Source: Vibrio cyclitrophicus
GTDB lineage: Bacteria; Pseudomonadota; Gammaproteobacteria; Enterobacterales; Vibrionaceae
NCBI RefSeq assembly: GCF_024347435.1
Contig: NZ_AP025480.1
Coordinates: 558,001-622,000, forward strand
DNA length: 64,000 nucleotides
Direction of reading: 5' to 3'
Shown in pieces: positions 12,794 to 13,870 of this stretch. Below the pieces are notes generated by a model, which searched no databases, was not told where the DNA came from, and saw nothing but the letters and a program-made list of their open reading frames with translations. The position numbers and the translations under genes were made by a program. The first letter of the stretch is position 1; every line of letters starts with the position of its first letter.

Positions 12794-12799
12794 ATACTC

Positions 12800-12950
12800 T
12801 TCATACTTGAAGCCGCAGCGTTGTTAACTGCGTAAGTTCACCCTAATCACATAGTAGATCTATGCTCATAGGGCAGAACTTTAGTTACTTAACAAAGAAA
12901 GGGTCGCCTAGCTGCAACTCCAATTATTTTGAGCATATCTAGATTATAAA
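12800..12950. repeat. Probable dispersed Vibrio intergenic palindromic element
   Basis: A long imperfect inverted repeat. The core is AAGTTC-a-CCCTA-atca-CATAG-tagat-CTATG-ctca-TAGGG-ca-GAACTT (12834-12881), extended outward by GTTAA/TTAAC arms and then by GCAGC/GCTGC-type arms. From memory, very similar sequence (TTGAAGCCGCAGC ... GCTGCAACTCCAATTATT) occurs between genes in many Vibrio genomes, so I call it a REP/MITE-like element. It sits between the lpdA stop and its terminator and would be transcribed as a hairpin in the lpdA 3' UTR. Edges are approximate. Confidence 0.6.
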
Positions 12951-12977: not shown

Positions 12978-13044
12978 ATGTCTGAAGAAAATTTGGTCAT
13001 CATACTTGTAGGGAATCTCTTTCAACAAATAGCAATCTATTGGT

Positions 13045-13078
13045 AATAAAAAAGGATTGACGCAAAACGCCAATCCTT
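13045..13078 (-). terminator. Terminator of the luxR-family gene
   Basis: AAGGATTG / CAATCCTT arms around a loop of about 11 nt; on the minus strand the stem is followed by a run of T. It lies 190 nt beyond the luxR-type stop codon, so the 7-bp array is inside the transcript. Confidence 0.8.
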
Positions 13079-13090
13079 AAATCATTTTAC

Positions 13091-13265
13091 TCGAATCTCG
13101 AATCTCGAATCTCGAATCTCGAATCTCGAATCTCGAATCTCGAATCTCGAATCTCGAATCTCGAATCTCGAATCTCGAATCTCGAATCTCGAATCTCGAA
13201 TCTCGAATCTCGAATCTCGAATCTCGAATCTCGAATCTCGAATCTCGAATCTCGAATCTCGAATC
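13091..13265. repeat. Perfect 25-copy tandem array of a 7-bp unit
   Basis: TCGAATC (GATTCGA on the minus strand) is repeated exactly 25 times over 175 bp with no mismatch. The last base of the array is the G of the TAG stop of the luxR-family gene, so the whole array forms most of that gene's 3' UTR. It is a classic slippage-prone microsatellite. Confidence 0.98.
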
Positions 13266-13870
13266 TACTTATAAATGCACAGCATGTTTAAGTAGCTATC
13301 CGTCAAGGTCGAAAGTTCTTCTTGCGTATCTACACGCTTCGCTTGAATGAATAGCGAGTAACAAATGCCGTGGAACAGATTCGCAAGGTGCTTAGGGTCG
13401 TGGTCGTCACAGACTTCGCCACGCTCTATCGCTTTGCTAAACATGTTTTGTAGTAACATTTGGTTAGTGCGGTTTGTGGTTACGAATAGAGGCCATACTT
13501 CATCACGGGTTGATGCGCTCCATTCAAACCATACATTCAACCAATGGCAATCGTGAGCCACCAACGTCACCATTTCAGTTGCAATATTATGTAAGTTCTC
13601 TTTTGCGTGAATATCGAGATCGATATTGTCTGAAAGGAAGTTAGAGAATTGGCGAACGACGTGGTTAAGTACTTCATCAACCAGATCTTCACGGGTTGGG
13701 AAGTAGTTAAACACGGTTGCAACTGATACCTGAGCAATGTCAGCTATATCAGCGTGCCCACCACGGCCAATGCCGCGGCGAGAGAATACCTCAAGTGCGA
13801 TTTCCATCAATTGAAGTTTTCTTTTTAAAGGTGAAAGCCTAGTTCTAGGTCTCTTAGATATTGAGTCCAT
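13265..13870 (-). CDS. luxR: Quorum-sensing master regulator, LuxR/HapR/OpaR/SmcR family (TetR fold)
   Basis: High-cell-density master transcription factor of Vibrio quorum sensing (not the LuxI-partner LuxR of Aliivibrio). The 201 aa have a Lys/Arg-rich N-terminus, a TetR-type helix-turn-helix at about residues 40-64 (DIADIAQVSVATVFNYFPTR) and a helical dimerisation/ligand domain with the family-typical HDCHWLNVWFEWSASTRDEVW segment. ATG with AAGGA 8 nt upstream. Its location between lpdA and hpt matches V. parahaemolyticus opaR. Translation is expected to be controlled by Qrr sRNAs at the leader. The 3' UTR consists largely of the 25-copy heptamer array. The symbol is generic for the family; the species may use litR, opaR or similar. 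Confidence 0.95.
   Translation of the reverse strand: MDSISKRPRTRLSPLKRKLQLMEIALEVFSRRGIGRGGHADIADIAQVSVATVFNYFPTREDLVDEVLNHVVRQFSNFLSDNIDLDIHAKENLHNIATEMVTLVAHDCHWLNVWFEWSASTRDEVWPLFVTTNRTNQMLLQNMFSKAIERGEVCDDHDPKHLANLFHGICYSLFIQAKRVDTQEELSTLTDSYLNMLCIYK

Follow-up and report, generated by a model that had tools for sequence, protein, structure and literature searches.

A perfect 25-copy heptamer array behind a luxR-family gene of Vibrio cyclitrophicus belongs to a 3'-end cassette shared by unrelated genes

In Vibrio cyclitrophicus, a quorum-sensing regulator gene of the luxR/hapR family runs directly into a long perfect array of a 7-bp unit, which raises the question of whether such an array is a device of this regulator or a feature that the gene shares with others. 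The window analyzed is a stretch of 64,000 nucleotides. By direct reading of the sequence, the array occupies positions 13091 to 13265, that is, 175 bases made of exactly 25 units of TCGAATC on the forward strand (GATTCGA on the minus, or coding, strand). Tandem Repeats Finder (TRF) delimited the array at 13090-13266, with a period of 7, 25.3 copies, 100% matches and no indels. The gene (13265 to 13870, minus strand) encodes a 201-aa regulator that was assigned to the LuxR/HapR/OpaR family (NCBIfam NF040929, 409.3 bits, cut-off 350), has LuxR and SmcR as its best matches among solved structures, and is flanked by lpd and hpt. The G of its TAG stop codon is at the same time an array base. An earlier note on this DNA had described 25 exact copies that share this G with the stop codon, and the sequence and the TRF result bear out that description. 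Elsewhere in the window, perfect runs of period 5 to 14 were all of 2.8 copies or fewer.

On the minus strand, the array is followed by an 11-nt linker (TAAAATGATTT, 13079 to 13089) that can be aligned across host genes, and by an intrinsic terminator of the type that accompanies GATTCGA arrays (AAGGATTGGCGTTTTGCGTCAATCCTT and then a T-run, 13048 to 13078). The covariance model described below, termed R1, matched this terminator at G000:C1:571045-571096 with 70.1 bits, the terminator being itself one of the 17 elements from which the model was built. The hairpin, AAGGATTGGC..GCGTCAATCCTT, starts 11 bases past the final, incomplete copy; other counts give 12-13, and the earlier note gave 13 bp. 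The tail past the terminator (12980 to 13045, minus strand; contains GAAAGAGATTCCCTAC) is of a type also found behind yacG in relatives. Going by position, all array copies would be transcribed. An Rfam scan returned three matches, every one under its gathering score; a sub-threshold match to V_AS5 (43.9 bits, gathering score 96) lies at 12797-12938 on the minus strand, downstream of the luxR terminator, and V_AS5-like sequence was found by eye in the luxR-lpd gaps of some relatives and was absent from others.

A sample of 1,002,000 bases (the window and 47 further stretches, about 19% of the genome) held five perfect period-7 runs of at least three copies, of which the luxR array was the longest and the next had 5.1 copies; three mononucleotide shuffles of the sample held none. 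Other perfect runs in the sample numbered three each for periods 5, 6 and 8 and one for period 15. In the whole genome, two or more perfect copies of GATTCGA occur at four places, a count of perfect copies that imperfect arrays would escape. Across the genus, three tandem copies of GATTCGA were present in 47 of 227 Vibrio genomes; for two control heptamers of equal composition, the corresponding numbers were one and none. Family-wide, 47 of 296 genomes carried the triple unit, five of them from two other genera, and it was absent from all 24 genomes taken from the order's other genera. With its 25 copies, the luxR array was the longest GATTCGA array met in this analysis.

Arrays of other units were also encountered. 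AGCTTAG, the mirror image of GATTCGA, was detected in 39 of the 227 Vibrio genomes; the two AGCTTAG arrays of this genome (G000:C1:1449024 and G000:C2:1354092) each have a stop codon on one side and a terminator-like hairpin on the other, and the orientation of AGCTTAG is mixed in one relative (G202). At the luxR loci of AND4, V. owensii and V. rotiferianus, other heptamer arrays (GGGAAAC, GAGACGA and AGCGATT) stand after the terminator. Within the sample, arrays of CTAATGG (L172), TTAGC (L171), TAACTGG (L168) and a 15-mer (L136) were found at 3' ends. The 15-mer array (L136, 14249-14347) has 6.6 perfect copies directly after a stop codon, and its unit is a copy of the end of the gene, stop codon included; another stretch (L153, 16309-16342) has about four copies of an 8-mer within the loop of a terminator-like hairpin. 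A general rule that tandem arrays reside at 3' ends was considered and set aside, as by an informal estimate on the 1.0 Mb sample they are not clearly concentrated there beyond intergenic DNA. The single GATTCGA is likewise not a general 3' UTR motif: in 648 3' flanks it was found seven times, the four arrays included, and its reverse complement three times, which is no enrichment.

The four GATTCGA arrays of this genome lie behind luxR, lnt, malT and a gene here named hemW for its Radical_SAM and HemN_C domains. All four are on the sense strand, begin no more than 4 nt from the stop codon, and are followed by a terminator-like hairpin with a T-run. To these were added 42 rows from 40 places in relatives (two of the rows being the second part of an array that had been split), and the resulting 46 rows were examined for an open frame of at least 65 aa ending within 60 nt upstream of the array. 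By this approach, a sense stop was found in 38 of the 46 rows, with a gap from stop to array of 29 nt or less, and an antisense stop in five, three of which belong to what by size and place is the transposase frame of an insertion sequence. Four rows fell inside a frame of at least 100 aa, and the stop-codon test gave no host gene at seven of the 40 loci in relatives. Many of the rows are orthologues (luxR, lnt, hemW, argS, yacG), and the rows are therefore not independent. The genome search for further GATTCGA arrays that the earlier note had proposed thus finds all four at stop codons and in sense. Neither of the two outcomes that the note had named as contrary to its reading, a fixed copy number or a random intergenic scatter, was seen in this between-species comparison. 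GC skew indicates that the genes carrying the four GATTCGA and the two AGCTTAG arrays of this genome all face replication head-on; this orientation has a base frequency of about 0.43 by estimate, and arrays of other units occur in both orientations, so the bias is noted here and head-on orientation was not retained as a cause.

The array is one part of a larger unit. At several genes, the alignable linker and a terminator of the type AAGGRTTGRC...GYCAAYCCTT come after the array. In the 1.0 Mb sample, a pattern for this terminator matched beside the luxR array only; among the array loci fetched in addition, it matched beside hemW and lnt. The strict pattern occurs at two places in the whole genome, both adjoining arrays. 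An HMM built from 23 luxR elements of other genomes, with this genome left out to avoid circularity, ranked luxR (1.6e-12), lnt (1.2e-7), hemW (8.7e-7) and yacG (4.2e-5) highest in about 1.04 Mb of this genome, a search space in which the lnt and hemW loci had been chosen for their arrays and three further loci for their R1 matches. The heptamer contributes 6 of the approximately 51 positions of this HMM. The R1 covariance model (17 elements) matched in 115 of 227 Vibrio genomes at E <=0.01, many of them weakly; in this genome its scores for lnt (63.4 bits) and hemW (55.7 bits) followed that for luxR, all three being among the 17 elements, and the next score was 39.7.

Of the 132 cassette matches listed, 99 were tabulated after removal of double fetches, contig edges, opposite-strand matches and weak matches, and at least two loci (luxR of SWAT-3 and of MOR1) are duplicated within these rows. 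The host genes were luxR (32 rows), lnt (23), argS (14), yacG (14), hemW (11) and folD (2), with three other or unclear; in six rows the host was given by its C-terminus or by locus (two broken up by an insertion sequence). An unexpanded cassette, in which TAG is followed directly by one ATTCGA, was found in 11 of 32 luxR, 9 of 23 lnt and 2 of 11 hemW rows. Fewer than two copies were present in 16 of 32 luxR, 11 of 23 lnt, 5 of 14 yacG and 3 of 11 hemW rows; none of the 14 argS rows was of this kind or unexpanded, the argS arrays having 3.3-12.4 copies. GATTCGA arrays with a different terminator stand behind malT of this genome and, in two other genomes (L093, L126), behind a gene of unassigned family, and array and terminator can therefore part. 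Taken together, these results reveal that the luxR array belongs to a dispersed 3'-end cassette (array, linker and AAGGRTTGRC terminator) located behind luxR, lnt, hemW, argS, yacG and folD. The earlier note had taken the array for a possible tuning device of the quorum-sensing master regulator; a cassette that is found behind these other genes, with arrays also behind malT and others, is not specific to luxR.

Copy number at luxR varies widely, from 0 to 25.3 among 29 loci. Neighbors on the luxR tree differ: Isolate34 has 1 copy and G120 has 12.4 (support 0.92), HI00D65 has 1-1.9 and G180 has 9.3 (support 0.96), V. fortis has 2.4 and D404a has 12.4 (support 0.79), and SWAT-3 has 12 copies next to a degenerate array in V. 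chagasii (support 0.43). The group nearest to this genome on the luxR tree has 1-7.3 copies, compared to 25.3 here. These comparisons are between species, with one genome per species and luxR genes of at most 91.3% identity to that of this genome. Such differences fit, as far as sequence comparison can tell, slippage or unequal recombination starting from a single-copy seed. The luxR tails past the terminator are of two types, and that of this genome groups, along with 10 or 11 other rows (two loci counted twice), with the yacG tails. This genome's tail is 0.68 identical to the best yacG tails and 0.72 identical to the best luxR tails, so that an exchange between luxR and yacG, which lie about 16 kb apart, is offered as a suggestion only.

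The explanation we consider likely is a hypervariable minisatellite of 7-bp units that sits within a dispersed 3'-end cassette of the vibrios around V. splendidus, is tolerated in the gap between stop codon and terminator and is used as a landing pad by an insertion sequence in relatives. To the position, the orientation, the sharing between genes and the between-species copy differences that were observed, we add by inference how the array would arise and persist. The single GATTCGA of the unexpanded cassette would serve as the seed, and strand slippage or unequal recombination would lengthen and shorten the array, as the copy-number differences between species suggest. Placed past the stop codon but short of the terminator, the array could change in steps of 7 bp with protein and termination unaltered, and would for this reason be tolerated. 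Such arrays are also the preferred residence of an IS3-family element that is found in related genomes and absent here.

This element, found in the arrays of several relatives, is 1252 bp long, has the ends TGATATGGCCCC and TGATGTGACCCC, and carries IS3-type OrfA and OrfB. In one copy (L125), OrfA matched HTH_Tnp_1 (PF01527, 2.6e-15) and OrfB the rve integrase core (PF00665, 4.2e-23), domains from which we take the element to belong to the IS3 family. Its terminal inverted repeats are imperfect, and target duplications of 3-4 bp, such as GATT, GATG, GGAC and ATA, accompany many, not all, of 29 copies. The left end was matched 22 times in three genomes and, in a genus-wide search that scored at most three candidates per genome, in 36 of 227 genomes; this genome gave no match to the left end, and a megablast search of PLSDB gave no plasmid copies of the element. 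At the loci surveyed in relatives (L125, L292-L317 and L341-L352), the element is for the most part located within a heptamer array or at its border, with a target duplication of GATN and similar. At one luxR locus (L312, genome G039), where an IS3-type copy adjoins the array end, the luxR terminator lacks its left part.

The association of the element with arrays was counted at its left end. Of 70 listed places 61 were tabulated, and removal of one without a left flank, one too diverged and one duplicate left 58 readable ends; an array was taken to be a perfect 5- to 9-mer run of at least 15 bp no more than 50 nt to the left of the end. Such a run was detected beside 45 of the 58 ends, with a period of 7 in 42, and beside 33 of 46 when the 12 places at the VF530-like site (see below) were removed. 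By comparison, random 50-nt windows, all drawn from this genome, in which the left end had no match, contained a run in 54 of 20,000 cases, 10 of them of period 7. The units beside the element included GATTCGA, GATACGA, GATGCGA, TAGATGC, TATTAGG, GTAAACG, TCTAGGT, CTGGGTT, AATGGGA, ATGCGGG, AGCTATC and the 8-mer GGTTTAAG, among others. Among 31 full-length copies with both flanks, the array was on the left only in 18, on the right only in 2, on both sides in 6 and on neither in 5; the right flank often held one or two units, under the run threshold.

A further site of this kind lies behind a 70-aa gene that we presume to be VF530-like (L353-L382). It is one orthologous intergenic site at which the unit differs between species (TATCTCG, CATCTCG, CACCTCG and 9-mers), and in many species an eroded insertion-sequence end adjoins the array. 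The site was surveyed in 30 genomes, the best 30 of 220 with the gene; one locus (L376), an artefact of a contig end, is not counted among those with an element end. An array was present at all 14 loci with an element end of at most five mismatches and at 12 of the 16 loci without a clear end; of these 12, three (L364, L368 and L380) show by eye an end with small deletions, and others 8-9 bases of the end.

How element and arrays are related can be read in more than one way. That IS3-family transposition is coupled to 7-bp arrays as such, the element recognizing or building heptamer arrays whatever their letters and vibrios thereby carrying self-renewing landing pads in the gaps between stop codons and terminators, is a tentative proposal that we would not press. 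At luxR, yacG, argS and lnt, the element appears to target existing arrays, which predate it there because many relatives carry them without the element. Unlikely, in our estimate, is the reading that the arrays are made by the insertion sequence, whose insertion or activity at the left end would seed and extend 7-bp arrays from any target letters, leaving element-free arrays as old scars. The frequency of period-7 runs of many different units at left ends, the predominance of left-sided arrays and the array at every VF530-like locus with a clear element end all favor an origin from the element. By contrast, this genome holds four GATTCGA arrays with no match to the left end and no end visible by eye beside them, the element-free arrays of luxR, lnt, yacG and argS are older than the element there, and three quarters of the VF530-like loci without a clear end (12 of 16) carry arrays as well.

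An effect of the array on RNA was also considered. The transcript across the array (251 nt folded) is predicted to form a long imperfect hairpin of -94.7 kcal/mol (z -3.97; none of 200 dinucleotide shuffles as low), the predicted energy falls roughly in step with copy number, and the terminator hairpin is kept intact in the predicted fold. With such a self-paired hairpin predicted and the terminator intact, an effect on RNA stability is possible. The effect on the amount of LuxR would be expected to be small. According to the earlier note, a changing copy number could tune the regulator; in the fuller form considered here, copy number would set the length of the luxR 3' UTR and its folding into a self-paired (GAUUCGA)n hairpin, which could alter mRNA stability, RNase III cleavage or sRNA/Hfq contacts and so produce reversible quorum variation. 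The predicted hairpin and its dependence on copy number speak for such tuning, as do the strong copy-number variation at luxR and the rank of GATTCGA and AGCTTAG, which are predicted to fold better than 83% and 96%, respectively, of heptamers of equal G+C. However, array heptamers as a set are not better folders than random ones (21 observed units compared to 600 of equal G+C, p = 0.37), and a hairpin was therefore rejected as their common property; no fold at all is predicted for GATACGA, GAGACGA and AATGGGA on the listed strand. Half of the luxR rows have fewer than two copies, and the same array is carried by the housekeeping genes argS, lnt, hemW, yacG and folD. As array heptamers fold no better as a set and most other hosts are housekeeping genes, we regard tuning as improbable. 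Thus, what stands of the earlier reading is the position between stop and terminator, the variation of copy number at luxR and the bias to sense 3' ends; against it speak the presence of the cassette behind other genes, the luxR cassettes of fewer than two copies and the lack of self-folding as a general property of such heptamers.

Least probable is a binding array, in which each heptamer would bind one RNA- or DNA-binding protein (cold-shock protein-like) or an RNA and so mark a regulon of array-bearing genes: the sense orientation after stops, the recurrence of the same host genes across species and a precedent proposed for TAACTGA repeats (PMC4679880) favor it. The luxR, lnt, yacG and hemW cassettes of fewer than two copies (argS having none such) and the lack of enrichment of the single GATTCGA after stops speak against it, and we consider it very unlikely.

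The minisatellite-in-cassette explanation can be placed beside systems already described. In the open-licence literature that was accessible, outside which most subscription titles lie, no published account was found either of these Vibrio arrays or of insertion sequences residing in arrays of heptamers. Simple sequence repeats of contingency loci lie in reading frames or promoters, where slippage-like copy changes switch expression; the luxR array resembles them in its stepwise change of copy number but is located 3' of the gene, starting at its stop codon. Insertion sequences targeting REP repeats were reportedly described by Tobes and Pareja in 2006, and the Vibrio element is similar in entering dispersed extragenic repeats, although its residence consists of tandem heptamer arrays of differing units. 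Heptanucleotide repeats of cyanobacteria go by the name of STRR. Three such repeats of Calothrix are mentioned in one report (PMC4692102); they are also tandem but have other hosts, and the likeness is one of description.

The same report describes heptameric repeats of Xanthomonas and Nostoc, GGGAATC and GGGGA(C/T)T, which lie near stop codons on the sense strand, are G-rich and quadruplex-forming with a preference for four units, number about 180 sets per Xanthomonas genome, and are generally not associated with insertion sequences (PMC4692102). The Vibrio arrays are similar in being tandem 7-bp units that are largely intergenic and that stand in sense, a short distance behind stops. By contrast, neither strand of GATTCGA contains three consecutive G, and this Vibrio genome has four sets, linked to one terminator type and, in relatives, to a resident insertion sequence. 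TAACTGA direct repeats have been reported from marine Beggiatoaceae, cyanobacteria and Bacteroidetes, with up to 43 copies in some species and an unexplained origin (PMC4679880). They likewise consist of a single heptamer in tandem sets at many intergenic places, but are described there as lying mostly just upstream of start codons in the Beggiatoa genome, whereas the Vibrio sets come directly after stops. In Geobacter metallireducens, a GGACCGG-type unit in four copies is found at 49 sites within and between genes (PMC2700814), which is comparable in that tandem heptanucleotides make up a dispersed family.

According to one report, many bacteria have an excess of heptamer arrays, which have hardly been studied (PMC4692102). 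In Vibrio, the unit keeps to a single position relative to the gene, a single strand and, for the most part, a single type of terminator, and its host genes form a recurring set. An insertion sequence is at home in arrays of which the letters are quite different and the period constant. These properties make testable the questions of why the period is seven and what carries such repeats from one gene to an unrelated one. For Vibrio biology, the luxR 3' UTR, which as judged from sequence measures about 50 to 220 nt, changes fast in length; this length is worth recording in comparisons of strains, and the luxR array is a possible VNTR marker.
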